IMG/VR virus record: IMGVR_UViG_3300032893_000027
Location: 1-64,000 of that record
Origin: a virus
Length of the DNA: 64,000 bases
Strand: one strand, 5' to 3'
Part shown: positions 7,651 through 57,407 of the stretch, one piece after another
Position numbering within the stretch: position 1 is the stretch's first letter
How the letters are laid out: the number at the start of each line of letters is the position of its first letter
Notes under the pieces: model-generated
Told to the model about the DNA's origin: nothing
The model's input: only the letters and a program-made list of their open reading frames with translations
Databases searched by the model: none
Translations under genes and position numbers: made by a program

Positions 7651-7850
7651 GCGACGGCTGGCAACCGATAGAGACGGCGCCGAAGATTGAAGGTTATCGC
7701 ATTCTAGTTGCGCGCCCTTGTGCCACGATTGGAGCAAATATGGTGGGCGAGGATTATTGGACCGACAGGCTGCAAGGCGGATGCTGGGCTAAATCAACGC
7801 CAATGGCCCAGCCAACTCACTGGATGCCACTACCGGAGCCGCCGAAATGA
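7647..7850 (+). CDS. Array gene 5: DUF551 protein without block A
   Basis: This is a minimal DUF551 unit of 67 residues. It begins directly with SDGWQPIETAP and ends with THWMPLPEPPK, with an aromatic, glycine-rich centre. It shares block C DNA with the gene at 6697. The stop overlaps the next start. Confidence 0.75.
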   Translation: MSDGWQPIETAPKIEGYRILVARPCATIGANMVGEDYWTDRLQGGCWAKSTPMAQPTHWMPLPEPPK

Positions 7851-37925: not shown

Positions 37926-38849
37926 TTAGCTCAACGGGAACGTGCCCCAAATGGCACGCCAGTCGTAGTAGGTGGGAACATAACGCTGATAGCCCTTAAC
38001 AAGCAAGTTGTCAGTGGTGAACTCCACAGACATGTCCATTTCGAACGGCTTGCGGTTAAAGAAGATCAGGCCGTCATGATTGGTCAGGATGAACCACGCG
38101 TAGCTCGACGTCAGATAGTCGAACACCATGTAGCCTTCCTTGAGCGAATCATTCATGCCCAAGATCGCGTTAACGTCGTTGGTCGTGGTGCCCGGACGAA
38201 GCTCAGACCTGAACAGGCGCAGAGCAATGGGCTCCAAGTTCGGGGGGATAATAACCTTACGCCCACGAGCATGGATTTTCAGACCAGCGTTGTCACGCCA
38301 GTTGGATCGGATCGTAATGAGAGCATTCAGAAGAGTGGTCTCATTCAGATCAACGTCAGGAGACGGCTGGTTGGCAATCGACCCATAGGGCGGGTCAATC
38401 GGGTGGCCAGTCGAGTTAATCAGCGACACACCGTCACCACCAACCGCCGCGTTATAGGTCGTTGCGGTATTGAGGACGTTGGCAGCATAGATTTCCTCGG
38501 TCTCCTTGAACGATTCCATCAAACCGTCATTGGAGGGGCCGAACTCTGCCTTGTAGAGGTTGTCATCAATGGCCTTGCGAGTAATCGCGTAGCCAAGGCC
38601 AATCTCGAAGTGCTCTGCGTTGTAGACAAAGCGCTGACCAGCAGAGTTGTCGAAGGAGGTCGGGGCGCCTTCCTGCTTTAGCTGAGCATAGCCCAGATAA
38701 CGCATTGCGGCCCGACGTTCCAAGGCCATCTCGGAATTGGTCTGCCTGAAGATCTGCGGCCACTGCCGCTCGATCATGGCATACTTTCCGGAGATACCCC
38801 AAAGGCCCGGAAGGAGTAGATCTCGGATTTGTGAGAGTGCTACGGGCAT
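37926..38849 (-). CDS. Major capsid protein
   Basis: The 307-residue protein is the best capsid candidate: a charged helical N-terminal arm (RQWPQIFRQTNSEMALERR), then FVYNAEHFEIGLGYAITRKAI, the body with RSNWRDNAGLKIHARGRK and VIIPPNLEPIALRLFRSE, and a closing aromatic strand. Proteins with this KxTxAxxDxxYxxxxx-like layout are annotated as HK97-fold major heads in related phages. It follows the decoration-like gene with a 12-bp gap. Confidence 0.75.
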   Translation of the reverse strand: MPVALSQIRDLLLPGLWGISGKYAMIERQWPQIFRQTNSEMALERRAAMRYLGYAQLKQEGAPTSFDNSAGQRFVYNAEHFEIGLGYAITRKAIDDNLYKAEFGPSNDGLMESFKETEEIYAANVLNTATTYNAAVGGDGVSLINSTGHPIDPPYGSIANQPSPDVDLNETTLLNALITIRSNWRDNAGLKIHARGRKVIIPPNLEPIALRLFRSELRPGTTTNDVNAILGMNDSLKEGYMVFDYLTSSYAWFILTNHDGLIFFNRKPFEMDMSVEFTTDNLLVKGYQRYVPTYYDWRAIWGTFPLS

Positions 38850-42843: not shown

Positions 42844-43062
42844 TTACTTCTTTCCAGCTTGACTACCGGCAGGCTTACCGGCAGGGATGGGACCAATGCT
42901 CTCCCGTGCCGGGAGGGTTAGGGGATCAAGATCTTGGTTCTGGTAATAGGCCATATCAGCAGCCTTATCACCCGGCCATTTATAATGGTCGGCATGACCA
43001 ACAATCTTTTGCATCTTGGTAAACCGAGATTTCTTAACGTCGCCGTGATGATGATGTGCCAT
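42844..43062 (-). CDS. His-rich small protein after portal, 72 residues
   Basis: It begins MAHHHHGDVKKSRF, resembling the head of the neighbouring basic protein, and has a central helix (ADHYKWPGDKAADMAYYQNQD) and a Pro/Gly/Lys end. It starts at the last base of the portal gene, so is probably translated with it. No assigned function. Confidence 0.55.
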   Translation of the reverse strand: MAHHHHGDVKKSRFTKMQKIVGHADHYKWPGDKAADMAYYQNQDLDPLTLPARESIGPIPAGKPAGSQAGKK

Positions 43063-45773
43063 TAGTCCTCGTCCCTCTTGGGTTTCTTTGTAACAGCTTT
43101 CTTACTAGCTGTCACCTTGGCCTGAGCCAGCTTCTTGCTGGTAGAAAGTTCTACCTTATGTTTTTCTTTCTTCATTTGCATTTCTTGATCGTTATGATCT
43201 AGCTGCTGCTCATGAGCCTCATCTTCTCTTTCAGTTTTCGCCTCTTCAGACGGACCATGCGCTTTCGCAGCAGCGTCTCCCATTTTCTTGGCCGCCTCAA
43301 GTTCGACCTGATGCCGTTCCCTCTGGTGCTGCATCTCTTGGGCATGCTGCGCCGCCTCCCGCGCTAACTGAGAGCGGTGCTTCTGGTTCTCCATCTGAAT
43401 CTGTTGGTTGCCTTTCTGCTGCTCTAGGGCAAACTGCCCCTTCTGCTTCATGGCTTCCGTATACAGATTCGCTTGGTTTTCCTGATGCTTGGCATGGACA
43501 TCATGAGCCCGAGCCAGCATGTCCATCTGCATCTCTTGCTGCTTGGATGCCTGATCCATCTGCATCTTGTGATGAGCCTGAACCAGATCCGTTTGGGCCT
43601 GCTGCGTGTGTATAATACGCTCACCCTCCAGCTTCTTGTCCTGAAGCAGAAGTTTCATCTGCTCAATCTTCTCACGGCTGACCCGCTCCTGCGCCGCATC
43701 CTGTATCTTCATGGCTTCGCTGGCGGCCTTGATCTTCGTCTCAAGCAACTGAATCTCAGCCTGCTTTTCTGCCTGCATTGACTTCTGCTGTATCGCCACC
43801 ATGCGTGGATCAGGAGCAGGAGTAGCAGGAGCCTGACGAAACAATCCTTGCGGATTAATGTCCGCAATTTGCATGACATGCATATCCACCCCAACCGGAT
43901 CGTAAAGATCTGGGTTAGCCTTCTGAAGCTCCTTGATAGCCATAGCCTTGGCCATGCGGTGCAGACTGGTTGGGTTGTTGGGATCGGCCACCGGAACAAT
44001 GTGATAGTCATTAAGTGCTTGAAGGAACTGGTCTTTCTCCCACTTCTTGAAGCCTTTGCAATGCCGGATGAACGCACCGGGATCTTCCCGGAGACGTTCG
44101 ACTAGGAGTTCAAATTCCTTCGCCTGCGAGGCATGGAGACGCTTGTGAGCCGAATCCATGACCTTGGTCGCTTGTTCGATGAGTGCAAGAGTAGTTCCAA
44201 CAGGAGCGTCCTGTTTGCCTTCGCCGACGTTGATGTTTGCTGTCTGTCCAAGCTTTCGTCCAATTTCCTCCAGATGTTGGATGAAGGCCGTAAAGGACGG
44301 ACCCGTCTCTTTGTACGGCAGCGGCATGACCGATTTGCGGATATCATCCTGTGATCCGATTTCAAGTCCAACACCCCCACCCGGAGGCACCCGGAACTGG
44401 TTAGAGAGTTGCCGACCAATCCCCTTTGCATACAAGAAGCCGGGGAAGTTCGCGAACATCCCGTTGTCGAGTTGGAGTCGGGTCGATGCTGTTAATGCAA
44501 TCGTTATATTACCGAGAAGGTGGACATAGCCAAGCCCATAAAAGCCCAATCCACGGACCATTGGGAATTGCACAAAGTATTCTTTGGCGCGGCAGTCCTT
44601 GTCGTCCTTCTTCCAGTTCCTTCTAATGTCAAGAATCTGGCGAGAACCCTTTTCAATTGTGACACGATAGGGAAGGGGTAACCCTTTGCCCTTGAACTTC
44701 TCAGGGGCGAATTCATCGAGGTCTAACTCTGTGTAGATTTCGTAGACTTCATAGTCGCGGTCTTCAGGTTTCTGCGCATTCGGATTGAAGCCTGCAACTT
44801 CATTTTTCTTTTTATCAACCGCCGTTTGAGGGAACTGGACGGGAGCCGCGAGGTCCACATCACGGTAAACCTCTTCGATCTGCATCCGCTTCAGGACCGA
44901 CTTGCGCATCCTGATACGATGGGTGATACGGCCACAGTTCTGGAGATCGGTGGCCGAGTCCGATACGATTAGATCTTCTGCATCAACGCTCTCTGAAACA
45001 GCCTTACGCTTTAGTGGACAGTTAAAAACTTTCTTAAATCCGTCACCACCGAAACCAACATAGAACAACATGCGGTCAGTATCGGCCACATAGTTGGTCC
45101 CGGTTAATAGATAATGGTTGAGTCCCTGTTCCAGCGCTTGAGCGAGTTCGTCGCTACTGGCTGCAAGTTGAGGGGGAGGAAGGGTGGGATATGGATTGTC
45201 GGGGTCCGCCGCATTGGGCGATGCAAGGACATACCTCGGCACAATCGGTGAGTCATTCCGGACCTTAACCGGACCTGCCGCAGGTAATAGCTCCGCTCGG
45301 GCCGTGGCTTGGAATGACACTGTGGCGTCAAGCAGGAGGGGGTGCCGCACCGTGGACATACCCTCCAAGGGGGCAGACGATCCACCAAGGTCGGTACGAG
45401 GCTTTTCAAGCTTGAGCCCAAGTAATTCAATACCGAGAGCCCTTGTTTCCATCCACTCATTCCGCGACAATATGTCGCGCTCGACACCAGCCAGAAGTTC
45501 CGAAGCAATCTTACCGAGTTCATCCTCGGATATTTCAAGGGCAAGGTTGGCTTCGAAACTGGTATCCCGCTTAACAGTGGTATGAGCACGAATAGCTTCC
45601 GGGTTCGTATCAAAAGTCGTGGTTCCATCAGCATTGTCGATGCGAAGCATCCCATGCTCGACGGTTATGTTCACTGTTTCTTCTTTTGACGGACTCTCGA
45701 CCAGCCGCAGTCTGGGCCGGTCTGGGGTCGGATAGGGGTCCGACAATCCCATGCTATTCGATTTTCGAGCCAT
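43062..45773 (-). CDS. Portal protein (P22-like) with long C-terminal barrel
   Basis: The dodecameric portal is the DNA gateway and packaging-motor base. The 903-residue protein matches large podovirus portals: RHPLLLDATVSFQATARAEL in the stem region, LDNGMFANFPGFLYAKG, and VGTTLALIEQATKVMDSAHKRLH. The last 300 residues are an almost pure Gln/Lys/Glu coiled coil, as in P22 where the C-terminus forms a long internal tube. It follows the terminase gene with a 7-bp gap, as expected for packaging genes. Confidence 0.85.
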   Translation of the reverse strand: MARKSNSMGLSDPYPTPDRPRLRLVESPSKEETVNITVEHGMLRIDNADGTTTFDTNPEAIRAHTTVKRDTSFEANLALEISEDELGKIASELLAGVERDILSRNEWMETRALGIELLGLKLEKPRTDLGGSSAPLEGMSTVRHPLLLDATVSFQATARAELLPAAGPVKVRNDSPIVPRYVLASPNAADPDNPYPTLPPPQLAASSDELAQALEQGLNHYLLTGTNYVADTDRMLFYVGFGGDGFKKVFNCPLKRKAVSESVDAEDLIVSDSATDLQNCGRITHRIRMRKSVLKRMQIEEVYRDVDLAAPVQFPQTAVDKKKNEVAGFNPNAQKPEDRDYEVYEIYTELDLDEFAPEKFKGKGLPLPYRVTIEKGSRQILDIRRNWKKDDKDCRAKEYFVQFPMVRGLGFYGLGYVHLLGNITIALTASTRLQLDNGMFANFPGFLYAKGIGRQLSNQFRVPPGGGVGLEIGSQDDIRKSVMPLPYKETGPSFTAFIQHLEEIGRKLGQTANINVGEGKQDAPVGTTLALIEQATKVMDSAHKRLHASQAKEFELLVERLREDPGAFIRHCKGFKKWEKDQFLQALNDYHIVPVADPNNPTSLHRMAKAMAIKELQKANPDLYDPVGVDMHVMQIADINPQGLFRQAPATPAPDPRMVAIQQKSMQAEKQAEIQLLETKIKAASEAMKIQDAAQERVSREKIEQMKLLLQDKKLEGERIIHTQQAQTDLVQAHHKMQMDQASKQQEMQMDMLARAHDVHAKHQENQANLYTEAMKQKGQFALEQQKGNQQIQMENQKHRSQLAREAAQHAQEMQHQRERHQVELEAAKKMGDAAAKAHGPSEEAKTEREDEAHEQQLDHNDQEMQMKKEKHKVELSTSKKLAQAKVTASKKAVTKKPKRDED

Positions 45774-45780
45774 ATATTAG

Positions 45781-47475
45781 TTACGACCAGTATAGAGGCT
45801 GGGACAAGTTCCGACGATCATATGCCATTTCGTCATCTGATGCCACTCTATACTCTTCCTTACGTAGGGCAAAGCCCATATCTCTCAACCACCTAAGCGC
45901 TTGAGAGGTACTGTCTACCAGATCGTCATGGCTACCTTTGGGGAAGATACCGCACTGGCGAATCACCTTATCGGCCCAACTTCTATCCGGCGCATAGACC
46001 ATTCCGTCCCGGAACAAATGTTCAATCGAGTTCACCCGTGCCCACTTGTCGCCATACTTCTTGGGGTCGACTTGTTCCACCGACAGCCTTCCGGTTCCCC
46101 GGAGCAGCCGACTGAGTTCCTGCCCGACTGACTGGCCGCTGCCCTTGGCCTCGATTAACAATCTATCCACAGGGAATGTGGGCCATGTCGCCCCCTCCTG
46201 AGGGATACAGGTATCCATCACCTTCTGTAACAAGTCCGTGAATTGGAGCCGCTCCTCCCATGCATAGAGCAACATGATCTTGGGGTGGTCAATCATGGGC
46301 TTATTTTCGATAAACAGCTTGTGGCGACCCCTGAGGTCCGGAACCGGTTCTATTAGTTCCGATTCTTCCCGCCATATCCCCCATACCGTGAGGGCCGAGG
46401 GATCGTTCTCATCCTTCTCCGTAAAGGCCGGGTCCAAGGAAGCTACGACGAATTCGAATGGCGGAAGCCTTGGCATCTTATCCGTGTCCCAAAGCTGCCA
46501 ATATTCCTCCTTAATAATGGCACCACCACGAGGAACCGGATACTGCTGATACTGACCAGCCCACGCATACGGACCCTTATCTCGTTCCATATTCACGCAA
46601 ACTTGATCAGTGAACCGCTCGGGCCATGCTAGTTCTCCGTCCTCTTCTCTGGGGTCCTCCCAGATATTCTCGACCTCTTGAATCTCTCCAGTCTCCGGGT
46701 TAGCGAGTTCCTCTGTTCCTAAGACCGTAACACAATGACGGGCAGGATCATGCCGCATCGGTATCATAAGGTGGGTGTAACCCATCTCACGAGAGACGGC
46801 GACACCGGATACGTCGTCCTCGTGAAGTCTTTGTTGAATAATAACAATTGCGGATTCTTGGGGGTTATTGAGACGGTCTGGAACGACTTCCGTAAACCAC
46901 ATGTTCGTTGTGTATCGAACCTGTTCCGACTCCATCTCCATTGTGTTGTTGGGGTCGTCAATGATGAACCTGTCGCCGCGTTCACCCACCCCGATACCAC
47001 TAACGGAGGTAGCGAGCTTCCAACCAGTCTTGTCGTTGGCGAACTTGATTTTGGTAAATTGTTCGTTACTAATGTGGAACCGATTTCCCCACAGCTTTTG
47101 ATACCGGTCGCTAATGACAATGTTGCGACAACGCATATTATCGCGTTCCGTCAAGTGATTCGAGTAAGAAGCGCAAACATATCTGGTCCACGGCATATTT
47201 CGGGGACCCCACTCCCACGCTGGCCAGAACACGTCAGTCATTAACGACTTCGTGAAGCCGGGTGGAACATTGATGAGGAGACGTTTGATATGGCCGTGGG
47301 TGACAGCTTCGAGGTGCTCCGCAATGGCTTCTATAGCCCAACCTCTTATAAAGGGGATAGCGGGCTCGACTACGGGCCAAACATACTCGGCAAATTCTAT
47401 AAGTCTGCTTTCGGCGCGAACCTTCTCCATACGCTTTGCGATTTCGGCGGCAGCCTTAAGGACAATAGTGTGCAT
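45781..47475 (-). CDS. terL: Terminase large subunit
   Basis: This ATPase-nuclease packages the genome. The N-terminal ATPase shows a Walker A-like loop (NVPPGFTKS, about residues 69-77), the adenine-side NLTERDNMR-type helix, and Walker B FIIDDPNN. The C-terminal RNase H-like nuclease has SLDPAFTEKDENDPSALTV, LLIEAKGSGQSVGQEL and KGSHDDLVDSTSQAL, with Asp residues for metal binding. At 564 residues it has normal length. It is the first gene of the leftward virion operon. No small-subunit gene is obvious beside it. Confidence 0.93.
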   Translation of the reverse strand: MHTIVLKAAAEIAKRMEKVRAESRLIEFAEYVWPVVEPAIPFIRGWAIEAIAEHLEAVTHGHIKRLLINVPPGFTKSLMTDVFWPAWEWGPRNMPWTRYVCASYSNHLTERDNMRCRNIVISDRYQKLWGNRFHISNEQFTKIKFANDKTGWKLATSVSGIGVGERGDRFIIDDPNNTMEMESEQVRYTTNMWFTEVVPDRLNNPQESAIVIIQQRLHEDDVSGVAVSREMGYTHLMIPMRHDPARHCVTVLGTEELANPETGEIQEVENIWEDPREEDGELAWPERFTDQVCVNMERDKGPYAWAGQYQQYPVPRGGAIIKEEYWQLWDTDKMPRLPPFEFVVASLDPAFTEKDENDPSALTVWGIWREESELIEPVPDLRGRHKLFIENKPMIDHPKIMLLYAWEERLQFTDLLQKVMDTCIPQEGATWPTFPVDRLLIEAKGSGQSVGQELSRLLRGTGRLSVEQVDPKKYGDKWARVNSIEHLFRDGMVYAPDRSWADKVIRQCGIFPKGSHDDLVDSTSQALRWLRDMGFALRKEEYRVASDDEMAYDRRNLSQPLYWS

Positions 47476-47506
47476 ATAACCCTCGTAACGAAGAATTGAG
47501 AGTAAA

Positions 47507-47719
47507 ATGAAACTAGAACAATTACAACAGCTTGAATCTCAAATGATGGAGGAGGTCGTCAAGCGCAGGAAGCTTGGCGGCTATAGCACAGAGGCAGAGG
47601 GTCTTCTGCTGGTCTGTGAGCATCTTTTAAAACTAGAACAACATCTCCGAAACGAAGCCGAGATGGTGGAGGTGATGAGTGCCGTTACCCCTAAAAACAA
47701 AAAGGCTAGATCTGCATAA
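47507..47719 (+). CDS. Short coiled-coil protein, 70 residues
   Basis: A helical peptide of heptad type (LEQLQQLESQMMEEVVKRRK, then LLVCEHLLKLEQHLRN) with a basic end. It diverges from the terminase gene with only 31 bp between, so both promoters must overlap coding sequence or be very compact. Its 3' end overlaps the acetyltransferase start by 41 bp in another frame. It could be a small terminase factor, but I see no DNA-binding domain. Confidence 0.55.
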   Translation: MKLEQLQQLESQMMEEVVKRRKLGGYSTEAEGLLLVCEHLLKLEQHLRNEAEMVEVMSAVTPKNKKARSA

Positions 47720-48197
47720 CCTCGTATACGAGGAAGAGACCCTACGGACCATTGTGGGCTGGTTGAATCATCCGGACGTTGTTCGGTTTTCCGAGCAACG
47801 CCACCGAACCCACAATATCCAAAGCCAAGTTAACTACTTCAATTCTATCGTTCATGGCAATCGCTATGTCGGGATTTATCTCGGCAAGCTTTTGATTGGG
47901 ACGATGACGGCCACATTCGACAAGCCCAACTCTATTGCCAACATCGGCATCATGCTTGGCGAGAAAAGCCAATGGGGTCATGGCTATGGGCAGGAAGCTT
48001 GGTCAAGTTTTTGTGATGAATTATTCCGGGAAGGGGTGCGAAAAATAGAAGCGGGCTGCATGTCCATCAACTATAGGATGATGGGTATCTGCCAGCACTA
48101 CGGGATGGTCGAAGAAGGCCGCCAAGATAAACACTTTGTTTTTGGCGAGGGGTTCACTGATCTGGTCCATTGGGGAAAGTTTAATGAGCCAAGCTGA
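47679..48197 (+). CDS. GNAT acetyltransferase, PseH-like by context
   Basis: The 172-residue RimJ/RimL-type enzyme has DLHNLVYEEETLRTIVGWLN, RYVGIYLGKLLIGTM and a motif A-like LGEKSQWGHGYGQEAWS for CoA. In pseudaminic acid synthesis PseH N-acetylates the 4-amino group of the intermediate made by PseC. The strong GGAGG site decides the GTG start. Overlap with the next gene (14 bp) shows operon linkage. The substrate is inferred only from neighbours. O-acetylation of another sugar is possible. Confidence 0.7.
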   Translation: MPLPLKTKRLDLHNLVYEEETLRTIVGWLNHPDVVRFSEQRHRTHNIQSQVNYFNSIVHGNRYVGIYLGKLLIGTMTATFDKPNSIANIGIMLGEKSQWGHGYGQEAWSSFCDELFREGVRKIEAGCMSINYRMMGICQHYGMVEEGRQDKHFVFGEGFTDLVHWGKFNEPS

Positions 48198-48786
48198 AGT
48201 CTTTCTAGCAGGAGAAGGAGACCGCTATCATGAACGAAACCGCAATGCAGAACTTAACGCAAGCGTTGTTAACGCCATACTTAGCATTGGCTTCCGGCCA
48301 AATGCTATTCTTGAGATTGGCTGTGGAGATGGCCGATACCTTCACGAACTCTATCAATACTATGGAGGACGATGCGTTGGGGTCGATCCTTCCTCGGACG
48401 CCATCGCCGAAGGCAAACTCAAATATCCGGAAATTGAACTCATATGCACGGACGCGAAGGGAATAACGGATCGGTCGAGTTTCGACCTTATCGTCTTCGG
48501 GTTCTGTCTCTATCTAATGGATAGACAAGATCTGTTCTATCTTGTCTACCAATTCGACTGGCACCTTAAAGACGGTGGTTACCTCGCTATCCACGACTTC
48601 GATCCTGAGTATCCTCAGGTCTCGACCTACAAGCACAGGAAGGGAATCTACTCCTACAAGATGGATTACCCTTCTCTGTGGCTGGCTAATCCCGGCTACA
48701 GGAAGATTACAAAGGCCAAGACCGGTGAGGGCACTGCTATCACCATCCTCCAAAAACATGGCTGGGGTTCCCTATGCGAGTCCTGA
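48184..48786 (+). CDS. SAM-dependent methylase of pseudaminic-acid-associated type
   Basis: The 200-residue protein begins AEVFLAGEGDRYHERNRN, the pattern of methylases found in pseudaminic acid clusters. It has the SAM motif ILEIGCGDGRYLHEL with an acidic partner (VGVDPSSD) and a YLAIHDFDPEYPQ region. It could methylate a hydroxyl or amine of the finished sugar. ATG at 48184 lies inside the previous gene; a longer frame upstream lacks family similarity. Confidence 0.75.
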   Translation: MSQAEVFLAGEGDRYHERNRNAELNASVVNAILSIGFRPNAILEIGCGDGRYLHELYQYYGGRCVGVDPSSDAIAEGKLKYPEIELICTDAKGITDRSSFDLIVFGFCLYLMDRQDLFYLVYQFDWHLKDGGYLAIHDFDPEYPQVSTYKHRKGIYSYKMDYPSLWLANPGYRKITKAKTGEGTAITILQKHGWGSLCES

Positions 48787-49379
48787 TCCTATCCGGTTCC
48801 CCAGACCTCATCGAAGATACGGTCGTAGCCAGTGGCTGCGACCCCGTTGTCAGAATGCCTGATCTGGAAGTCTCTGACTGGCCCAAGAACGTCGATTGGG
48901 TTATCTCCTTTGGCTATCGCAAGATCGTGCCAGCCGCCGTACTCAAGAAGTTTGAAGGACGAGTCATCAACCTTCATAACTCCTTGTTGCCTTTCAACAA
49001 AGGCGCCCATCCGAACTTCTGGTCGTGGTGGGACAAGACCCCCAAGGGCGTCTCGATCCACAAGATGACAGACTCTCTCGACGGCGGACAGGTTCTTTGC
49101 CGCCACATTGTGGCCGAGTTCGATTTCAGGCCCACCAAGACATTGAAGTCCACCTATGACGATCTGATGGTGGCCGCCAGCGGTTTATTCAAACGGAACT
49201 GGATTCGCATCCTCTCTAACGACATTGTTCCCCCAGCCGCCTACGAACATGTTGGAACCTATCATCGCGTCAAAGATCTCGATCCGTTCTTTCGGTTGCT
49301 GCCACGGGGCTGGGATACCGATGTGACCCACGTTGAAGACATGGGCGACCTGTACCGAGGCGTCAATGGCAAAGCCTAG
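48774..49379 (+). CDS. Sugar N-formyltransferase (Fmt/ArnA-like)
   Basis: The 201-residue enzyme shows the fold of N10-formyltetrahydrofolate formyltransferases: DWVISFGYRKIVP, then RVINLHNSLLPFNKGAHP, then VSIHKMTDSLDGGQVL. The catalytic triad can be read as N66, H68 and D103. Short Fmt-like enzymes like this formylate amino sugars in nonulosonic acid and O-antigen pathways. A tRNA formyltransferase would have a C-terminal OB domain, which is missing. It overlaps both neighbours by 13-14 bp. Confidence 0.85.
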   Translation: MRVLILSGSPDLIEDTVVASGCDPVVRMPDLEVSDWPKNVDWVISFGYRKIVPAAVLKKFEGRVINLHNSLLPFNKGAHPNFWSWWDKTPKGVSIHKMTDSLDGGQVLCRHIVAEFDFRPTKTLKSTYDDLMVAASGLFKRNWIRILSNDIVPPAAYEHVGTYHRVKDLDPFFRLLPRGWDTDVTHVEDMGDLYRGVNGKA

Positions 49380-50229
49380 TGTCGGTATTCTCGGAATGGG
49401 CAGCATTGGCACGAGGCATGCCAAGAACTTCATGAGCCTTGGGTGCCCTGTACGTGGCTATGATCCAGCGACTCATACTGGCGATTATCGCAATTCGATC
49501 CTTGGAGGATCAGATGTTGTTGTCATCGCTACGCCAACAATAAGGCATTACGAAGACATAATTGATTGTTCCAACCACAAGAAGCCTATGCTTGTGGAGA
49601 AGCCGATCTGCGAGACAAGTTTCGTCCGTAAGGAACTTATGCCTTACGTCAAGATGGTAGGATATAACCTACGGTTTCATTCCTGCGTTCGAAAGACTCG
49701 TGACTGGTTGGGCGCTGGTCTGATTGGCAAGCCATTATGGGCGAGGTTCACCTGTGGCCAATACAACGATAAGCCTGCGTATCTTCGTGATGGCGTACTC
49801 CTTAATTGGAGCCATGAACTTGACCTTGCTCTTTATCTTCTTGGAATGGCCCGTGTCATGGGGGCGCATCTGCACCTTAACCCTGAAGATCTGGCTGACG
49901 TTCTACTTCGCCATGACAATAATGGCTGTTATAGCACTGTTCATCTCGATTACCTCGCTCGCCCTGAGCGTCGTGGCTTTGTAATCGTCGGGGAACGGGG
50001 AACTATAGATTCAGATTTAGTCTCTCGGAGAGCCACCCTGATCGACAACAATGGTGGCGTAGTCCATCAGCACTTCGGTCGGGATACCTTTGACAGCAAT
50101 TATATTACAGAAGCGGAAGCCTTCTTGGAGCGACTCGATGGCAAAGAGACCATCGGCTGCACCGCTGAGGAAGCCCTTCAGGTGGTAGAAATCGTTGAGG
50201 AAGCAAAGGGTTGCCACCGCTATGAATAA
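49366..50229 (+). CDS. Gfo/Idh/MocA-family oxidoreductase
   Basis: The 287-residue protein starts with the Rossmann motif VGILGMGSIGTRHAKNF and has VVVIATPTIRHYEDI and LVEKPICET, where the EKP lysine is catalytic in this family, then MVGYNLRFHSC. A C-terminal beta sheet and an end with AEAFLERLDGKE complete it. Such dehydrogenases act on sugar-ring hydroxyls. They also occur in nonulosonic acid clusters. ATG 49366 is after GAGG and is chosen over the upstream M. Confidence 0.85.
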   Translation: MAKPSVGILGMGSIGTRHAKNFMSLGCPVRGYDPATHTGDYRNSILGGSDVVVIATPTIRHYEDIIDCSNHKKPMLVEKPICETSFVRKELMPYVKMVGYNLRFHSCVRKTRDWLGAGLIGKPLWARFTCGQYNDKPAYLRDGVLLNWSHELDLALYLLGMARVMGAHLHLNPEDLADVLLRHDNNGCYSTVHLDYLARPERRGFVIVGERGTIDSDLVSRRATLIDNNGGVVHQHFGRDTFDSNYITEAEAFLERLDGKETIGCTAEEALQVVEIVEEAKGCHRYE

Positions 50230-52288
50230 GCTAAGGACAATTGCCATTGCCCAAGCCCGTATGGGTTCAACCCGGCTTCCCGGAAAGGTGATGTTTTACC
50301 TCAAAGGCAAACCGGTACTGAAGTGGACCTATGATGCCTTGAAAAGGGCACAGGGTGTTGACGAAGTTGTGATAGCCACGTCGACACTTCCGGCCGACGA
50401 TGTGATTGCAAAGTTCTGTGCAGTGAGTAACATGAACTGCTACCGGGGTTCTGAGAGCGACGTCTTAGAGCGCTATTACCAATGTGCCTTAGCCTATGGG
50501 GCACAGATCGTCCTGCGGTTGACTTGCGACTGCCCATTTTTGGATAGCAACGTGGTGTCGGAAGTGATCCGACTCCGTGATGCTAAGGATGTTGCGTATG
50601 CCTCTAATATTGACCCTCCCACTTATCCTGATGGCTTGGACGTTGAGTGCTTCACTTTCGATTCTCTCTTTGCTGCATATAAAGAGGCTGTTCGTCCTTC
50701 TGACCGTGATTGCGTTACTCAATTCATTACTCGCAATCGTGACCGGTTCCCTGCTGCAAATCTTACCTGTCCCCTCCCCGGCCTACAGAATGAACGCTGG
50801 GTCCTCGATACAAGAGAGGACCTCGACTTTTGCGGAAACGTCGCCGAAGTCCTTGAGAGCGATCCCTCATATGATGGGCAGCCAACCTATCTCAAGATAT
50901 TAAAGGTCCTTGATATCTTTCCCAATTTCCGCGACCTTAACAAGGCGGGAATTAGGAATGAACGGTTCTTTGACGCCATCCACACCGAAGCGCTCCCTGA
51001 TCGGTCGTTTAAACGGTCTCAAGACTGGTTTAAGACTGCGACTCGACGTATCCCGATTGGCGCTCAAACTTTTAGCAAGAGCTACCTTCAGTTCCCTCCG
51101 GGGAATAGTCCGCTATACCTTACGCACGGTGATGGCGCTCGTGTGTTCGATCTTGACGGTAATGATTACGTTGATCTGGTTAACGCCATTCTGCCTGTTG
51201 TCCTTGGCTATCGTGATCCTGATGTGGATCAGGCCGTCCGCGACCAGCTAGACAACGGCATCAGCTTCAGCCTTTCCTCCAAGCTGGAATATGAACTGGC
51301 CGAGAACCTCTGCCAGATCATTCCCTCTGCCGAGATGGTCAAGTTCGGCAAGGGCGGCACTGACGTCACCACCGCAGCAATCCGGGCAGCAAGAGCCTAT
51401 ACCAAACGTCAGGACGTGGTTCTGACCGGTTATCATGGCTGGGCCGATTGGTCCATGTGTACGACCGACCGGAACCGTGGCATCCCCAAAGGGATCGGAT
51501 CTTATAGCATGCGGCTGCCTTACGGCGATGCCGAGCGGATGCATGACTATCTCCTTGAAAACCATAGGACTATTGCTGCTGTTATCTGTGAACCGGAGGG
51601 TGACGCCGAGTACCTACGTTATTTACGTACCATCTGTTCCAAGTATGGAATCGTTCTAATCTTTGACGAGGTGATTACCGGGTTCCGCTGGGCTATGGGC
51701 GGGGCTCAGAAATTTTATAACGTAACTCCCGATCTTTCCACATTTGGAAAGGCCATGGCGAATGGGATGCCCCTCAGCGCTGTGGTGGGAAGAGAAGAGG
51801 TGATGAAGGTTTTTGCGCCGCCGGAGAACATTTTTTATTCCGGAACCATGTTCGGGGAAACCCTTTCTCTGGCGGCCTCCCTTGCGACCATCAAGAAGAT
51901 GCAGCGGGAGAATGTGATCCAGCACCTCTGGAGGGTAGGGGCCGAGATTGACCTCCACCTCCAGAACCTGAGGGATAAGTACGGCCTCAATGAAGTTGTG
52001 AATATCAGTTCAGAGTTTCCAAAAAAGATTGTGACATTCAACGACATAGGTAACACGACCTCCAACCAGCTTCGCACCCTATTCATGCAATGCATGATCC
52101 AGAATGGGGTGCTGATTATCGGGTCCAACAACGTGTCATGGTCGATCCGTGAACCACAGTTGAAGCGCATTTTCTCCGCATATGAGGAGACGTTTTCCAC
52201 AATTAAATGCGCCATTGATAATGACAGTGTGAAGGATCTGATAGATGAAGAGTGCGCTATCGTGAGTCCGTTGCGGAAGGTTTATTAA
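50222..52288 (+). CDS. SpsF-like cytidylyltransferase fused to GSA-type aminotransferase
   Basis: A 688-residue two-enzyme fusion. Residues about 1-245 are a nucleotidyltransferase of SpsF type: IAIAQARMGSTRLPGKVM, VVIATSTLPADD, LRLTCDCPFLDSN. It probably activates a sugar with CTP. Residues about 270-660 are a class III PLP enzyme like glutamate-1-semialdehyde aminomutase: VFDLDGNDYVDLVNAI, FDEVITGFRW and the PLP lysine in FGKAMANG (K510). The two halves are often separate neighbouring genes in bacterial nonulosonic-acid loci. The start is ATG 50222 inside the previous gene; a longer frame from 50195 adds only a short unrelated peptide. Confidence 0.85.
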   Translation: MNKLRTIAIAQARMGSTRLPGKVMFYLKGKPVLKWTYDALKRAQGVDEVVIATSTLPADDVIAKFCAVSNMNCYRGSESDVLERYYQCALAYGAQIVLRLTCDCPFLDSNVVSEVIRLRDAKDVAYASNIDPPTYPDGLDVECFTFDSLFAAYKEAVRPSDRDCVTQFITRNRDRFPAANLTCPLPGLQNERWVLDTREDLDFCGNVAEVLESDPSYDGQPTYLKILKVLDIFPNFRDLNKAGIRNERFFDAIHTEALPDRSFKRSQDWFKTATRRIPIGAQTFSKSYLQFPPGNSPLYLTHGDGARVFDLDGNDYVDLVNAILPVVLGYRDPDVDQAVRDQLDNGISFSLSSKLEYELAENLCQIIPSAEMVKFGKGGTDVTTAAIRAARAYTKRQDVVLTGYHGWADWSMCTTDRNRGIPKGIGSYSMRLPYGDAERMHDYLLENHRTIAAVICEPEGDAEYLRYLRTICSKYGIVLIFDEVITGFRWAMGGAQKFYNVTPDLSTFGKAMANGMPLSAVVGREEVMKVFAPPENIFYSGTMFGETLSLAASLATIKKMQRENVIQHLWRVGAEIDLHLQNLRDKYGLNEVVNISSEFPKKIVTFNDIGNTTSNQLRTLFMQCMIQNGVLIIGSNNVSWSIREPQLKRIFSAYEETFSTIKCAIDNDSVKDLIDEECAIVSPLRKVY

Positions 52289-52296
52289 GAGGCAAT

Positions 52297-53211
52297 ATGA
52301 AATCGGTACTAATAACGGGCGGCTCAGGCAGCTTTGGGCAGGCATTCACACGGCACTTACTAACCACAGATGCCGAACGCATTGTGATTTACAGCAGAGG
52401 CGAACATGCCCAAGAGCAGATGGCCCGCAGTTTTGGGAATGGTCGTGTCCGTTATTTTATTGGCGACGTTAGGGACAAAGATCGCCTTTCTATGGCTATG
52501 CGGGGTATTGACACTGTGGTTCATGCTGCGGCGTTAAAAGTCGTCCCTATCGCCGAATACAACCCAACAGAATGTGTCTCCACTAATATAGGCGGGGCCG
52601 AAAATGTGGTTCTCGCAGCCATCACTATCGGCGTTAAAAAAGTCATAGCGCTCTCCACCGACAAGGCTGTTAATCCGATCAATCTCTACGGCGCCACGAA
52701 ACTCTGTGCCGAAAAAATATTCATTGCTGCGAATAACTTGGCGGCTGGTAAGACTTTGTTCAGCGTCGTCCGCTATGGCAATGTGGTTGGGAGTCAAGGT
52801 TCCGTCCTTCCTCTCTTCAAGACGATTGCAGCCGAAGGTGGCTCGTTACCGATTACGGATACCAGAATGACCAGATTCTGGATCAAAATGGAAGAGGCTA
52901 TCGCCCTCGTTAACCTTGCTCACGGAAAAATGAGTGGAAGAGAGATATTTGTTCCCAAGATTCCGTCGATGAATATTGTAGACTTGGCCGAATCAATCAC
53001 GCCGCGTTGGCACACATCCGGAATTCGTCCGGGTGAAAAGCTTCACGAAGTCCTGATTAGCGAGGATGAGCGCCCCTATACCGTGGATCGCGGGGGTTAT
53101 TTCACCATCTGCCCGACCGGCCGAGCGTCCAGAGGAGGTGCCGCCTACGCTTCCAACACCAATGACCAGTTCCTAACCCGCCAACAATTGAAGGCCATGG
53201 TTGATGCCTAA
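52297..53211 (+). CDS. pseB: PseB-like UDP-GlcNAc 4,6-dehydratase/epimerase
   Basis: PseB carries out the first step to pseudaminic acid. The protein has the NAD(P) motif ITGGSGSFG (residues 6-14), YFIGDVRDKDRL, VVHAAALKVVPIAEYNP, STDKAVNPINLYGATK (residues 120-135, catalytic D/K and YxxxK), VVRYGNVVGSQGSVLP and ITDTRMTRFWI. All match PseB/FlaA1-type inverting dehydratases over their whole length (304 residues). The AGAGG site and ATG 52297 decide the start. It is the best-conserved member of the operon. Confidence 0.92.
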   Translation: MKSVLITGGSGSFGQAFTRHLLTTDAERIVIYSRGEHAQEQMARSFGNGRVRYFIGDVRDKDRLSMAMRGIDTVVHAAALKVVPIAEYNPTECVSTNIGGAENVVLAAITIGVKKVIALSTDKAVNPINLYGATKLCAEKIFIAANNLAAGKTLFSVVRYGNVVGSQGSVLPLFKTIAAEGGSLPITDTRMTRFWIKMEEAIALVNLAHGKMSGREIFVPKIPSMNIVDLAESITPRWHTSGIRPGEKLHEVLISEDERPYTVDRGGYFTICPTGRASRGGAAYASNTNDQFLTRQQLKAMVDA

Positions 53212-53386
53212 GAAAAGCCCAACGGAACTCATCAAGCATATCACCAAGGCCCGAGCAAGGAATAACGTCCTATGGATGCAGCTACTAAAATTAGCGGTGG
53301 AGACGTCGCCAAGAAAGGCAAAATACATTCTGGCCAAGATCAATTGGAACGACCGGCAAATAAGCGGGTGGCTGAAAAGGCTGTAA
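53204..53386 (+). CDS. Small basic helical protein in the sugar operon, 60 residues
   Basis: The frame begins inside the end of the PseB gene and ends inside the start of the aminotransferase gene. It encodes a basic helical peptide (PTELIKHITKARARNNVLWM, then LAVETSPRKAKYIL, then INWNDRQISGWLKRL). A similar short pattern of paired helices with NNxxWM recurs, as I recall, in surface-sugar loci. The tight fit between two enzymes argues that it is translated. The role is unknown. Confidence 0.6.
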   Translation: MPKKSPTELIKHITKARARNNVLWMQLLKLAVETSPRKAKYILAKINWNDRQISGWLKRL

Positions 53387-54513
53387 GGCTCGGACCCCTA
53401 CCCAGATACTACACCATCGGCAAGATTGAAAAGCGCCATTCCTACAACGCCTTGAAGAACTCCTTGTCCGGCTATATCGGCGGGAACAGGAAGGCTGGCT
53501 ATTGGTGTGAACGGCTCAGCGCCGAATGGTCGGCTGCTTTCAACATCCGCTATTCCATTCCCTGCAATTCCGCGACCTCAGGGCTTCTGGCGGCCTGCAT
53601 GGCAGCCGGAATCAAGGCTGGCGATGAGGTCTGGGTCTCAGATTATACCATGTCGGCGTCGGCGACCTGTGCCCTGATCTTGGGAGCTAAGGTCACGCTT
53701 CTCGACGTTGATGACCACTTCTGCCTGCTATGGCACCAAGCTGGGGGCTCGCCTGTGCCCAATCAGTGGCCCAAGGCTATCATCGTGACTAATCTGTTCG
53801 GCTGCCCGGCAGATCTCCATTACCTGAGGAAGCTTTGTGATATCAACCACATCATCCTCATCGAAGATAATGCGCAGGCACCATTTGCGACCCTCAATGG
53901 TAAATATACGGGTACCATCGGGCACATCGGTGTATTTAGTCTTAATGTTCATAAGCATCTCCAGACCGGCGAGGGTGGGGTCATCGTCACCGACGACCCT
54001 CAACTCGCTCACAAGATTGATTGTGCCATCAATCACGGAGAATTGATGGGCAGCGACCCGCATCTGGGGCTCAATCTACGAATGACGGAACCAATCGCGG
54101 GCATTGCGTGTGCCCAACTTCAGCGTGGTCATCAGCTTGTGCAGGGCCGGATTCGCCTTGCGGAGGAGATCACGTCGATGTTTGAACACATTGATTGCAT
54201 TCATACGCCACGACTTCGCCCGGATAGTCAACACGTCTACTATATGTGGGCTGGTCAAATTCTCGGGAGCGATGCGGGGATTCGGCGCAAGCGCTTTATC
54301 GAAGCGGTGCAGGCGCGTGGTGTGCCGTTTCGGGAGGGGTATTCCCGGCCGTTGCATCGGATTCTGGGGATCGGTCACGATAGTTCCTTTCCAAATACCG
54401 TTTACCTTGAGGACCGCAGCCTGTTCACATTCGAGATATGCGCCTACGATCCCAAGACCCAGCATCTAGCTGCAATGCGGCAGATCATTGATGATGAATC
54501 GAAAAGATTGTGA
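53368..54513 (+). CDS. PseC-like DegT/DnrJ/EryC1 aminotransferase
   Basis: PLP-dependent sugar aminotransferases of this family add the amino group to the 4-keto sugar made by PseB. Motifs are IPCNSATSGLLAACMAAGI, GDEVWVSDYTMSASA, IEDNAQAPF, and FSLNVHKHLQTGEGG with K197 as the PLP lysine. Sequence is divergent from typical PseC, so substrate is inferred from neighbours. The GTG at 53368 gives the normal N-terminus; the ATG at 53272 would add 32 residues overlapping the small gene. Confidence 0.85.
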   Translation: MAEKAVRLGPLPRYYTIGKIEKRHSYNALKNSLSGYIGGNRKAGYWCERLSAEWSAAFNIRYSIPCNSATSGLLAACMAAGIKAGDEVWVSDYTMSASATCALILGAKVTLLDVDDHFCLLWHQAGGSPVPNQWPKAIIVTNLFGCPADLHYLRKLCDINHIILIEDNAQAPFATLNGKYTGTIGHIGVFSLNVHKHLQTGEGGVIVTDDPQLAHKIDCAINHGELMGSDPHLGLNLRMTEPIAGIACAQLQRGHQLVQGRIRLAEEITSMFEHIDCIHTPRLRPDSQHVYYMWAGQILGSDAGIRRKRFIEAVQARGVPFREGYSRPLHRILGIGHDSSFPNTVYLEDRSLFTFEICAYDPKTQHLAAMRQIIDDESKRL

Positions 54514-55523
54514 CCATGAGGATAGCCGACAGGGACATTGACAACTTTTTGAAGCCCTACGTCATTTGTGAGTGTAGTTGTAATCACGACGGCGACCTCG
54601 CCACGGCTTTGGCATTGATTGAGGCCGCGAAATGGGCTGGCGCGGATGCCGTCAAGTTCCAAGCCTATACGCCGGATACGATCACGCTGGATTGTAATAA
54701 GCCCGACTTCATTATTCAGGATGGGCTGTGGAAGGGGAGAACCCTTTATGAACTCTACAAAAAGACGTACACGCCGTTCGAATGGTTCCCGAAGATCTTC
54801 AAGCAGGCCAAGAAAGTCGGAATTACTGCCTTCGCTTCTGTATTCGACCTATCATCCGTTGACATGCTTGACCGACTTGGTTGCCCCGCTTTCAAAATCG
54901 CATCCATGGAAATCACGGATACTCCTCTTATTGCTTACGCAACTCGAAGAGGAAAACCCACAATCATTTCAACGGGCATGGCAAGTCGTGAAGAAATCCG
55001 TTCAGCTTATGAGGCGTGTGGAGGAAAACCTGTAGCCTTCCTGCATTGCACCTCTGAGTATCCTCAGACGGTGGAATGGTCCTCGCTTCAAAGTATCGTG
55101 AAGCTCAGGGAATTGTTACCCGGTGTTCCCATCGGGGTGTCGGATCATACGCCCGGTAATCTGGTAGTTCCGGTCGGTGGAACCGCTATGGGGGTGGCCA
55201 TTATCGAGAAGCACATGAAGCCGGAGGGCCTGTCGGATACCGAGGACAAGGAGTTCAGCCTCGATCCTGAATCCTTCAAGAGCATGGTCAAGCTGGTTCA
55301 GATGACCCATGAGGCGCTTCAGATCAGGGAACAATTGTCCAATCCAACCCGACAATTGAGGCGTTCGCTCTATGCGGTCGCTGATATCGAGAAGGGCGAG
55401 ACCTTTACTGAGGCTAATGTGAGAAGCATCCGGCCCGGCTTTGGCCTCGCACCCAAGCATCTGCCCCGCCTGCTGGGAAAGAAAGCCAGCCACAATTACC
55501 GCAGAGGAGACCGGATCACATGA
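54510..55523 (+). CDS. pseI: PseI-like pseudaminic acid synthase
   Basis: Condenses the 6-deoxy amino sugar with phosphoenolpyruvate to make the nine-carbon acid. The protein has a NeuB-type TIM barrel start (VICECSCNHDGDL), then VKFQAYTPDTITLD, PDFIIQDGLWKGRTLYELY and TPFEWF, a set that marks PseI rather than sialic or legionaminic synthases. Next come IASMEITDTPLIAYA and GVSDHTPGN, and the C-terminal SAF domain (RRSLYAVADIEKGETF). Length 337 is normal. Start is GTG 54510 or ATG 54516; the first overlaps the upstream stop as GTGA. Confidence 0.93.
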   Translation: MTMRIADRDIDNFLKPYVICECSCNHDGDLATALALIEAAKWAGADAVKFQAYTPDTITLDCNKPDFIIQDGLWKGRTLYELYKKTYTPFEWFPKIFKQAKKVGITAFASVFDLSSVDMLDRLGCPAFKIASMEITDTPLIAYATRRGKPTIISTGMASREEIRSAYEACGGKPVAFLHCTSEYPQTVEWSSLQSIVKLRELLPGVPIGVSDHTPGNLVVPVGGTAMGVAIIEKHMKPEGLSDTEDKEFSLDPESFKSMVKLVQMTHEALQIREQLSNPTRQLRRSLYAVADIEKGETFTEANVRSIRPGFGLAPKHLPRLLGKKASHNYRRGDRIT

Positions 55524-55975
55524 GTATTGTCAATGATTTCAAAGCCATCAACGACAATGTTAAGAAGTTGAATGAGCAAGAACCAGAGTTGATGAACGGA
55601 TATGATAGAACGAATTATTCACCGCCGATCAACCTGCCGCCAAGCCACGGGGCACCGGATGGATCTTTACATTGTTCGGCTGGAAAGGATGGGCTGAATG
55701 TTTGGTGGGTCGCCGACTCGAATGTTCTAGGCGGATGGCGATTGGCGACCGAAAAAGAACTCGGAATCTCTCCCACCCATCCGGCAGTCCAAGGCCAGAT
55801 CATCATCGACCCCGGTCATAACCACCAAAACCCGAATGCCCAACAAGCCAATGCTGCCCAGCAGGCCATCCTTGGAACTGATGTAGGAGGTAGATTGGGC
55901 TTCAGGATCCCACCGGGATATACACGTTATTGGGTCGTGAAAAGCAATCGACTTTGGCGGAAGGTTGGGGTGTGA
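55520..55975 (+). CDS. Hypothetical protein, 151 residues, coupled to pseI
   Basis: The ATG overlaps the pseI stop (ATGA), so it belongs to the sugar operon. The N-terminus is helical, the middle carries GSLHCSAGKDGLNVWWVAD and a PGHNHQNPNAQQANAAQQ segment, and the end is RYWVVKSNRLWRKVGV. I do not recognise a family. A link to use of the sugar is possible from position only. Confidence 0.6.
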   Translation: MSIVNDFKAINDNVKKLNEQEPELMNGYDRTNYSPPINLPPSHGAPDGSLHCSAGKDGLNVWWVADSNVLGGWRLATEKELGISPTHPAVQGQIIIDPGHNHQNPNAQQANAAQQAILGTDVGGRLGFRIPPGYTRYWVVKSNRLWRKVGV

Positions 55976-56175
55976 AGCATCATCCCAAGCCGAGGTATGA
56001 TGCCTCATGGGATGAGGATCACGAATGCTGGGTGGTGCCGTGGACTTGTCTGGTGGGGTGCAAGTGCTGGATGAGGGTATCCGGCCCCCAGAAGGGGAGC
56101 TGCATTCATGGCGGCCCCTACATGGGCTATACGCCGTGTGGGAAGTGCTGTGAGCCTGACCGAACAACTAATTAG
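55972..56175 (+). CDS. Cys-rich small protein, 67 residues
   Basis: The GTG start overlaps the previous stop. The protein has seven Cys in three clusters (CLVGCKCW, GSCIHGG, PCGKCC), suggesting a metal-binding or disulphide-knotted fold. A further WDEDHECWVV lies near the start. No family is recognised. Confidence 0.6.
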   Translation: MKHHPKPRYDASWDEDHECWVVPWTCLVGCKCWMRVSGPQKGSCIHGGPYMGYTPCGKCCEPDRTTN

Positions 56176-56248
56176 AGTGGAGATCTATGTGGCTCTCGCA
56201 TTTGTGATCGCATTCCTGACGGTCCTTTACGATATCTTCAACTCATGA
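56150..56248 (+). CDS. Single-span membrane peptide, 32 residues
   Basis: GTG at 56150 lies inside the previous gene; the TGA overlaps the next ATG (ATGA). The peptide has a polar head (SLTEQLIR) and a hydrophobic helix (YVALAFVIAFLTVLYDIF). Chained overlaps support translation. Confidence 0.5.
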   Translation: MSLTEQLIRVEIYVALAFVIAFLTVLYDIFNS

Positions 56249-56442
56249 AGATGGAACAACTCAGTTGTGCGACCTGCCGGTTCTGCCACGAATTGGACTC
56301 AGAATCGTTCATATGTCGCCGTTATCCACCGAGGATCTATGAGTTCCAAGGCAAGGTTTTGACACTTTATCCACCCATTAACGATATCAGGACATGGTGG
56401 TGTGGGGAGCATAAGACTAATTTCAAGAGCGGAGCCAACTGA
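56245..56442 (+). CDS. Zinc-ribbon protein, 65 residues
   Basis: It carries CATCRFCH and, about 14 residues on, CRRYPP, then TWWCGEHK. This C-x-x-C ... C-R-R-x-P-P ... W-C-G-E layout is a known small phage pattern of unknown role. Linked by overlap to both neighbours. Confidence 0.7.
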   Translation: MKMEQLSCATCRFCHELDSESFICRRYPPRIYEFQGKVLTLYPPINDIRTWWCGEHKTNFKSGAN

Positions 56443-56663
56443 TGCAGAATACGAAGCAGGCCATTAAAGACGTCCTTTTCGTCCTTAGCGACAGGACCAA
56501 GGCAATGGATGCAAGGAACTATCCAGACTGGTTCCAAAAGGCCGTAGACGAGGGGGGCTACGCTAAATCGTGGACCATACTCCTGCAAGCCTGCCTCGAA
56601 GAGATCAAGATGCATCAAGATCTCAATGGACGGCTTTACAAGCAACTCTATCCCTCGGGCTAA
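56442..56663 (+). CDS. Hypothetical small protein, 73 residues
   Basis: A helical protein (TKQAIKDVLFVLSDRTKAMD, then WTILLQACLEEIKMHQDL). It starts at the last base of the previous gene. No family is recognised. Confidence 0.55.
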   Translation: MQNTKQAIKDVLFVLSDRTKAMDARNYPDWFQKAVDEGGYAKSWTILLQACLEEIKMHQDLNGRLYKQLYPSG

Positions 56664-56665
56664 CC

Positions 56666-56926
56666 ATGAGCGAGATGCTTAAGCGAGTGGCGATAGCGAT
56701 TGCTGCTAGTCGTGGGTCTGGTTCATGGAAGGCATACGAGATAGAGGCGCTCGCCGCTGTTGCGGCCCTACGGAACCCGACCCGAGAGGTGAAGCTAGCC
56801 GCGAACAAGGTTCCCATCAAACGCAGCCTCTTGAGTGAGGATGAAACCTATTATGTGACCGGATATGAGGCCGAAGATATCTGGCATGCCATGATTGATG
56901 GGATAATTGATGAGATACTCAAATGA
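56666..56926 (+). CDS. Hypothetical small protein, 86 residues
   Basis: The N-terminus reads MLKRVAIAIAASRGSGSW and then AYEIEALAAVAALRNPT, similar in spirit to the block A/B modules of the early array but without close identity. The end is acidic (EAEDIWHAMIDGIIDEI). ATG 56666 is chosen over a longer frame that overlaps the previous gene. Linked to the next gene by ATGA. Confidence 0.55.
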   Translation: MSEMLKRVAIAIAASRGSGSWKAYEIEALAAVAALRNPTREVKLAANKVPIKRSLLSEDETYYVTGYEAEDIWHAMIDGIIDEILK

Positions 56927-57072
56927 CACTGTTCTTTATTGGCCTCTATTTCGGGATCGGGATGGGTTCCGTAACCGTCATCTGTATCGACATTCCGAGC
57001 CCTTCCTTCTGGAAGGTATTATTGTCCATGATGTTCTGGCCGATGTTCTTTTTCCTGCCTGATCCAGAGTGA
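56923..57072 (+). CDS. Two-span membrane peptide, 49 residues
   Basis: ATG overlaps the previous stop. Two hydrophobic segments (FFIGLYFGIGMGSVTVICI and VLLSMMFWPMFFFL) flank a short polar turn (DIPSPSF). It could be a small membrane protein or holin-like peptide. The second span is rich in Met and Phe. Confidence 0.55.
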   Translation: MTLFFIGLYFGIGMGSVTVICIDIPSPSFWKVLLSMMFWPMFFFLPDPE

Positions 57073-57078
57073 GTAAGT

Positions 57079-57306
57079 ATGATTGACATATATGATTCAG
57101 AGTTCGATGAGAAGATCCGCATCACTCAGAAGAAGGATTGGATCTACGTCCATTATTCAAAGCGGGTGGGGGGTGGCTTCATCAAGATGAAGCGAGACCT
57201 CTGGCGTCAGGTCGCCCACACTGTGATAGGCATCACAGATAAGGATTGGCCCATAATCGGAGAAAGAAAGAAATCAGCCCCGGTTAGTGAGGGATCTCTG
57301 CGATGA
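57079..57306 (+). CDS. Hypothetical small protein, 75 residues
   Basis: Acidic head (DIYDSEFDEKIRI) then a basic aromatic part (KKDWIYVHYSKRVGGG) and a Trp-containing end. No family is recognised. It overlaps the next mini-gene (ATGA). Confidence 0.5.
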   Translation: MIDIYDSEFDEKIRITQKKDWIYVHYSKRVGGGFIKMKRDLWRQVAHTVIGITDKDWPIIGERKKSAPVSEGSLR

Positions 57307-57407
57307 TCTGGCTTTATCATCACTACAGCGGGGGCCATTTCGTTTGCTATGGCGATATCAGAACACCGTCATGGTCGCGCTGGCTTATTCCGGGGACTGA
57401 TACCTGA
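57303..57407 (+). CDS. Mini-protein, 34 residues
   Basis: ATG overlaps the previous stop. The peptide is aromatic and His-rich (IWLYHHYSGGHFVCYGD). The overlap and the clean end before a 76-bp gap support it. That gap (57408-57483) holds only weak inverted repeats. Confidence 0.4.
   Translation: MIWLYHHYSGGHFVCYGDIRTPSWSRWLIPGTDT

Follow-up and report, generated by a model that had tools for sequence, protein, structure and literature searches.

The Pse-like operon and its enzymes

The DNA analysed here (the window) comprises bases 1-64,000 of the 75,366-bp IMG/VR virus record IMGVR_UViG_3300032893_000027 and carries, at 47,679-55,523 on the plus strand, eight genes in tandem with stop/start overlaps or short gaps between neighbours. 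By Pfam and NCBIfam these belong, in order, to the GNAT, S-adenosylmethionine (SAM) methyltransferase, formyltransferase, Gfo/Idh/MocA, CTaMut, PseB, DegT aminotransferase and PseI families, CTaMut being a 697-aa fusion of a cytidylyltransferase and a class III aminotransferase. Our analysis supports a phage-borne operon for a pseudaminic-like nonulosonic acid (NulO), finds this cassette to be a core part of a phage clade, and points to a gene of the virion block, GTx, as a putative NulO transferase. Nonulosonic acids are used by bacteria and animals to control surface recognition. The features concerned are:

47,507-47,719 (+): orf0, small conserved first gene of 70 aa; 13 related contigs have a tblastn match immediately upstream of terL
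47,679-48,197 (+): GNAT N-acetyltransferase in the PseH position (PF13302, E 6.9e-12)
48,184-48,786 (+): SAM methyltransferase (PF13649, E 9.5e-14); ATG at 48,184, reading frame open from 48,136
48,774-49,379 (+): formyltransferase, a variable tailoring gene (PF00551, Formyl_trans_N, E 9.7e-17)
49,366-50,229 (+): Gfo/Idh/MocA oxidoreductase (PF22725, PF01408, GFO_IDH_MocA)
50,222-52,288 (+): CTaMut, SpsF/PseF-like cytidylyltransferase plus class III (GSA-type) aminotransferase (PF02348, CTP_transf_3; PF00202, Aminotran_3)
52,297-53,211 (+): PseB, inverting UDP-GlcNAc 4,6-dehydratase (TIGR03589 above cut-off; PDB 2gn4)
53,272-54,513 (+): DegT aminotransferase in the PseC position (PF01041, E 1.8e-52)
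54,510-55,523 (+): PseI, pseudaminic acid synthase family (TIGR03586 above cut-off; PDB 8h2c)
55,520-55,975 (+): orf9, its start overlapping the PseI stop
45,781-47,475 (-): terminase large subunit (terL), divergent neighbour (PHROG 38, E 1.5e-77)
43,062-45,773 (-): portal protein, SU10-like (PHROG 1216; SU10-type portal domain in the contig)
37,926-38,849 (-): major capsid protein (PHROG 371; 76-86% identity across the clade)
30,528-31,406 (-): GTx, putative CMP-nonulosonate glycosyltransferase of GT42/Maf-like predicted fold in the virion gene block (AlphaFold2 model, Foldseek, VIA, co-occurrence with the cassette)

The initial annotation of this DNA had described consecutive, overlapping rightward genes directly beside a head-tail block, and the open reading frames (ORFs) were indeed found in that arrangement: terL, transcribed divergently, starts 31 bases before orf0, and portal, capsid and further head-tail genes continue from there. 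The outermost ORFs gave no family match, orf0 in Pfam and orf9 in Pfam, NCBIfam and PHROG searches. Over a stretch of 12.8 kb (window 44,510-57,321) that includes the terL-operon junction, the independent contig IMGVR_UViG_3300032897_000023 matches the window with 99.98% identity, and every clade locus tested has this junction too. In L004, a less closely related contig (TerL 83%), the GNAT, methyltransferase, formyltransferase and Gfo genes follow at 59-78% identity up to the contig end. Because the cassette is conserved in dozens of related phages, the operon is real and not a product of chance.

PseB and PseI anchor the assignment of the pathway. PseB scores 409.7 bits against the TIGR03589 cut-off of 407.75, with 2gn4 as the closest solved structure (E 2e-97), and PseI reaches 379 bits against the TIGR03586 cut-off of 340.25, as do its counterparts in four out of four other phages, its PDB match being the pseudaminic acid synthase 8h2c (E 2.2e-79). 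Both findings that the initial annotation had named as fatal to a phage-borne pseudaminic-like operon, a PseI grouping with unrelated synthases and a bacterial contig wrongly joined to phage sequence, are thus contradicted, the latter by the junction in the independent contig and the whole clade. Its names for GNAT, formyltransferase, methyltransferase, Gfo and fusion genes also stand in Pfam and NCBIfam, whereas PseC does not: the DegT aminotransferase scores 137.5 bits, far from the PseC cut-off of 423.5, also fails to reach the LegC cut-off, and has perosamine synthetase as best PDB match and other sugar aminotransferases as top PDB matches, so that it is PseC-like by position only. The GNAT protein matches no PseH model in NCBIfam, and the methyltransferase matches TIGR03587 (Pse-associated methylase) weakly, at 22.1 bits and far under the cut-off. 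In CTaMut the CTP_transf_3 domain is present by Pfam (the NCBIfam matches listed are the best 25 of 76), and K519 of its pyridoxal-phosphate motif is invariant in 16 phages.

Besides the aminotransferase, the point that weighs against a full pathway is PseG (TIGR03590), which was found in none of 12 near-complete phages searched, compared with five out of five bacterial genomes having the fusion gene; the latter is widespread in Pse clusters of bacteria, where PseB, PseG and PseI usually lie close by, and an unfused cytidylyltransferase and aminotransferase pair is reported next to PseG in an O-antigen cluster of Legionella (PMC3694923). The canonical CMP-pseudaminic route, PseB-C-H-G-I-F, corresponds to FlmA/FlmB/FlmH/FlmD/NeuB/FlmC in Caulobacter and RkpL-Q in Sinorhizobium (PMC7591256). 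The phage set resembles it in its PseB and PseI members, in an aminotransferase and a GNAT at the expected positions and in a cytidylyltransferase domain, but it lacks PseG, its aminotransferase and GNAT fall outside the PseC and PseH families, and it adds Gfo/Idh, class III aminotransferase, formyltransferase and methyltransferase functions, all as core genes of a phage clade. Since PseG is missing, the set as judged from its families is Pse-like and not the complete canonical pathway, and the near-complete set initially claimed needs this correction. Even so, the family assignments make NulO synthesis by the cassette very probable, and the phage can supply early and central pseudaminic-type enzymes during infection, the substrates being those suggested by the families.

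Conservation, inheritance and hosts of the cassette phages

The cassette was present at 47 out of 47 in-clade terL loci and at none of 31 sister-lineage loci (TerL ≤49%), a count limited to loci with 1.5 kb or more upstream of terL and including some contigs more than once. Contigs with a TerL of about 55-83% identity carry it in the same place with the order mostly kept and few exceptions. CTaMut was found in every near-complete clade member tested, and PseI in all of them except G033, with divergent copies in G035 and G038. Relatives mostly have either the formyltransferase or a second methyltransferase, so that tailoring varies and the backbone genes stay.

The CTaMut proteins of the phages are monophyletic (support 100), with sequences from Hyphomicrobiaceae, Hyphomicrobiales and Bradyrhizobiaceae as their neighbours. 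Between the window and L004, non-synonymous proportions were 0.14-0.27 and synonymous proportions, which are saturated, 0.66-0.78; the low non-synonymous relative to synonymous change indicates that the cassette genes, like terL and portal, are under purifying selection. Distances of CTaMut, Gfo and the PseC-position gene follow portal distances (Mantel rho 0.53-0.72, p 0.001), those of PseB and PseI only weakly (rho 0.19 and 0.37), and no parts of the cassette are more constant, or follow the phage tree better, than Gfo and CTaMut. At the PseB position two types occur among the window, L020, L089, L091, L017 and L019, namely the canonical form and a short form of about 283 aa (45-51% identity), of which the member tested scores below the PseB cut-off, suggesting repeated PseB replacement; given the two types and the weak tracking of portal, PseB and PseI have probably been swapped. 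The genes common to the window and four diverged phages are mainly virion genes, the cassette and GTx. Taken together, the cassette is core to the phage clade and vertically inherited rather than a stray acquisition. The initial remark that some large phages carry sugar cassettes understates a cassette that is core to a mid-sized (about 75 kb) and mostly integrase-less clade. A pathway kept as firmly as the capsid genes implies a strong and constant benefit to these phages.

Most cassette phages are probably virulent, because a tyrosine integrase was found in only two out of 14 near-complete ones. A cassette-less relative (major capsid protein 64%, TerL 45%) is a prophage with an integrase beside tRNA-Arg at about 47-98.8 kb of a Hyphomicrobiales genome (G178:C6, L321-L326); the capsid protein search of 397 Hyphomicrobiales genomes returned only this relative and no cassette-bearing prophage. 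The window phage contig encodes GcrA-like and DnaA C-terminal domain proteins, and the GcrA domain is typical of Alphaproteobacteria. This domain together with the integrated relative lets us infer a host in Hyphomicrobiales or nearby. As a separate observation, the GcrA-like and DnaA C-terminal proteins suggest interference with alphaproteobacterial cell-cycle control. Window positions 1-25,000 gave no nucleotide match to phage isolates, and no isolate appears to carry the cassette, because PseI had only three weak matches among 50,697 phage records and CTaMut only partial aminotransferase matches among phage records.

A candidate transferase in the virion block

GTx is a conserved protein of 292 aa (52-76% identity in 24 relatives) with a motif resembling CMP-sugar transferases, and it came to light by motif reading and folding only. 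Residues S163, D186, Y193 and H107 are invariant among the GTx sequences compared. Its profile reached a sialyltransferase, 9c08, in the PDB at no better than E 1.3. The AlphaFold2 model has a mean confidence (pLDDT) of 79, with a core above 90, and in Foldseek its sole matches at E ≤1e-3 were CstII structures (E 2.8e-6), while the second-look aligner VIA placed Magnetospirillum Maf on top (Z 11.3, 152 residues, 2.9 Å) and CstII at Z 11.1. A second GTx of 46% identity (pLDDT 84) behaved likewise: all of its 16 Foldseek matches at E ≤1e-3 were GT42 sialyltransferases, and Maf again came first by Z. The catalytic domain of Maf itself resembles CstII (PMC11339370), and both models match the GT42/Maf catalytic-domain fold. 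Close matches in a viral-structure search were unnamed phage proteins only. Because it contains no hydrophobic segment, GTx is predicted to be soluble like Maf. The likeness to Maf (5mu5) and GT42 CstII (1ro7/1ro8) extends over the predicted fold of residues 60-225, the expected solubility and the co-occurrence with a NulO pathway; GTx differs in being a single 292-aa domain with a C-terminal helix, in having no Pfam membership and in being a virion-block gene.

The second line of evidence is linkage. Of 15 near-complete phages with the cassette, 14 have GTx, compared with none of six cassette-less relatives (Fisher p 1.3e-4, for lineages that are not independent), the exception being G011, whose contig stops just past the capsid gene. 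In 53 loci it lies in the virion block, 1.7-8 kb from the capsid gene. GTx furthermore recurs with PseI and PseB in at least two unrelated phages: in L403 (IMGVR_UViG_3300032893_002216, 3566-8711) SpsF-like, PseI, PseB, portal and GTx genes are consecutive and overlapping, and a different Hyphomicrobiales prophage (G209:C2; L412, L408) has SpsF-like, PseI and PseB genes upstream of its virion genes and of a 31%-identical GTx. In G445 (84.7 kb) GTx stands straight after a portal-like gene with NeuB/PseI elsewhere, and a prophage in G206 contains a weak homologue, not far from NeuC and NeuD genes that may be the host's.

Several results pull the other way: none of five GTx members scanned matched Pfam, so that membership of a PF06002/PF01973-type family is lacking; the superfold is shared, with thiamine pyrophosphokinase at Z 10.7 and MptE-like HPPK at Z 10.3 in VIA; TM-scores to CstII are only 0.4-0.5; and in the main clade a single branch acquired both GTx and the cassette, so that their co-occurrence there counts as one event. 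On balance, fold and linkage make GTx a probable NulO transferase. When all the remaining ORFs of the window phage and G024 were scanned with Pfam, no glycosyltransferase, polymerase or flippase turned up among the families listed (for the window phage the best 25 of 30).

Two observations concern the GTx-bearing relatives. The prophage G209:C2 (L412, L408) also has, upstream of its virion genes, a pair reading like PseA/HisF-type. A 28%-identical GTx homologue adjoins the terminase genes of the Microcystis phage Mvi-Yong1342-1 (L407, 6902-7705), a phage without NeuB, and is annotated there, probably wrongly, as a type 11 methyltransferase.

Proposed role and alternatives

With modest confidence, we consider a phage-encoded protein glycosylation system the best explanation for a soluble, transferase-like GTx that is encoded with the virion genes and inherited with the NulO cassette. 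PseB would form a 4-keto-6-deoxy UDP-sugar, which the DegT enzyme would aminate and the GNAT, formyl- and methyltransferases would tailor; a UDP-sugar hydrolase step (PseG) would come from the host or another route, PseI would condense the hexose with phosphoenolpyruvate, and the cytidylyltransferase domain of CTaMut would yield the CMP-NulO. Other pairs of a dehydrogenase and an aminotransferase suggest by analogy that a hydroxyl may be oxidised by Gfo/Idh and re-aminated by the class III aminotransferase part of CTaMut, giving an extra-amino NulO. GTx might then transfer the sugar of CMP-NulO onto Ser/Thr residues in a structural protein of the phage, in keeping with its predicted structure and with Maf and FlmG, which glycosylate flagellin in the cytoplasm (PMC7591256, PMC11339370). 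The position of GTx in the virion block and its co-occurrence with the cassette favour decoration of proteins by the phage itself; virion proteins are the likeliest acceptors, at even odds or slightly better, and host surface targets are possible. A coat of this kind may serve masking, mimicry or the tuning of adsorption to alphaproteobacterial hosts. The full picture, i.e., a nearly self-sufficient virion 'sialylation' in a widespread soil phage clade, with its own NulO synthesis apart from PseG, a Pfam-less CMP-NulO glycosyltransferase family acting on structural proteins and probably an extra-amino NulO, is put forward tentatively.

The nature of the sugar is a point on which a different answer would be compatible with phage protein glycosylation: the product could be canonical di-N-acyl pseudaminic acid, with Gfo and the aminotransferase parts serving another sugar. 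PseB and PseI, both above their equivalog cut-offs, speak for it, but Gfo and CTaMut are the very genes that vary least and fit the phage tree best, and an aminotransferase that is not PseC, with neither PseH nor PseG, renders it rather doubtful.

Remodelling of the host surface would mean that, during infection, GTx or host transferases put NulO on flagella, capsule or O-antigen and thereby block superinfection or the sticking of progeny to debris. A role of this type has been proposed for cyanophage lipopolysaccharide (LPS) clusters (PMC7824862), and it would suit both the bacterial relatives of the fusion gene, which sit in complete Pse clusters, and the lack of PseG, which implies dependence on host enzymes. 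We regard it as unlikely, considering that 12 out of 14 near-complete members lack a tyrosine integrase, making lysogenic conversion improbable for most, that GTx is a virion-block gene and in L403 immediately follows the portal gene, and that GTx appears soluble and is the one candidate of its kind, the families listed for two full genomes including no further glycosyltransferase, polymerase or flippase. Less probable again is that GTx is a related-fold enzyme, MptE/HPPK or pyrophosphokinase-like, and that the cassette only feeds or alters host Pse glycosylation: Z-scores across both models are close (10.0-10.7 for thiamine pyrophosphokinase, 9.4-10.3 for HPPK), but only GT42 structures reached the Foldseek threshold with either, and a pterin or thiamine role would not explain why GTx accompanies NulO genes in several groups of phages. 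An assembly chimera or host contamination can be set aside, misassembly being ruled out by the nearly identical independent contig across the junction and contamination by the junction's presence in all clade loci tested.

Sugar clusters borne by phages are known from the cyanophages P-SSM2 and S-SSM7 (PMC3037559, PMC7824862), but these are sporadic and sit in very large genomes, whereas the soil-phage cassette is fixed in a clade of about 75 kb, is NulO-specific and comes with a GT42/Maf-like candidate. Viral pseI is listed in a review (PMC6359870) as counted among the core auxiliary genes of a marine virome, a single gene read as motility augmentation, in contrast to the operon and transferase candidate described here. 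The open-access literature searched contains no report of a phage nonulosonic-acid operon, let alone of a fixed one with a transferase candidate. The linked GT42/Maf-like gene makes phage self-glycosylation with sialic-acid-like sugars directly testable; if true, the compact and soluble GTx proteins would make up a new NulO transferase family, and the occurrence of pseI-like genes in viromes could be accounted for.

A second GNAT gene lies inside the virion block of the window phage (16,941-17,423, minus strand), with counterparts at 41-50% in G004, G006 and G024; the cassette-less prophage G178 has one at 37%.

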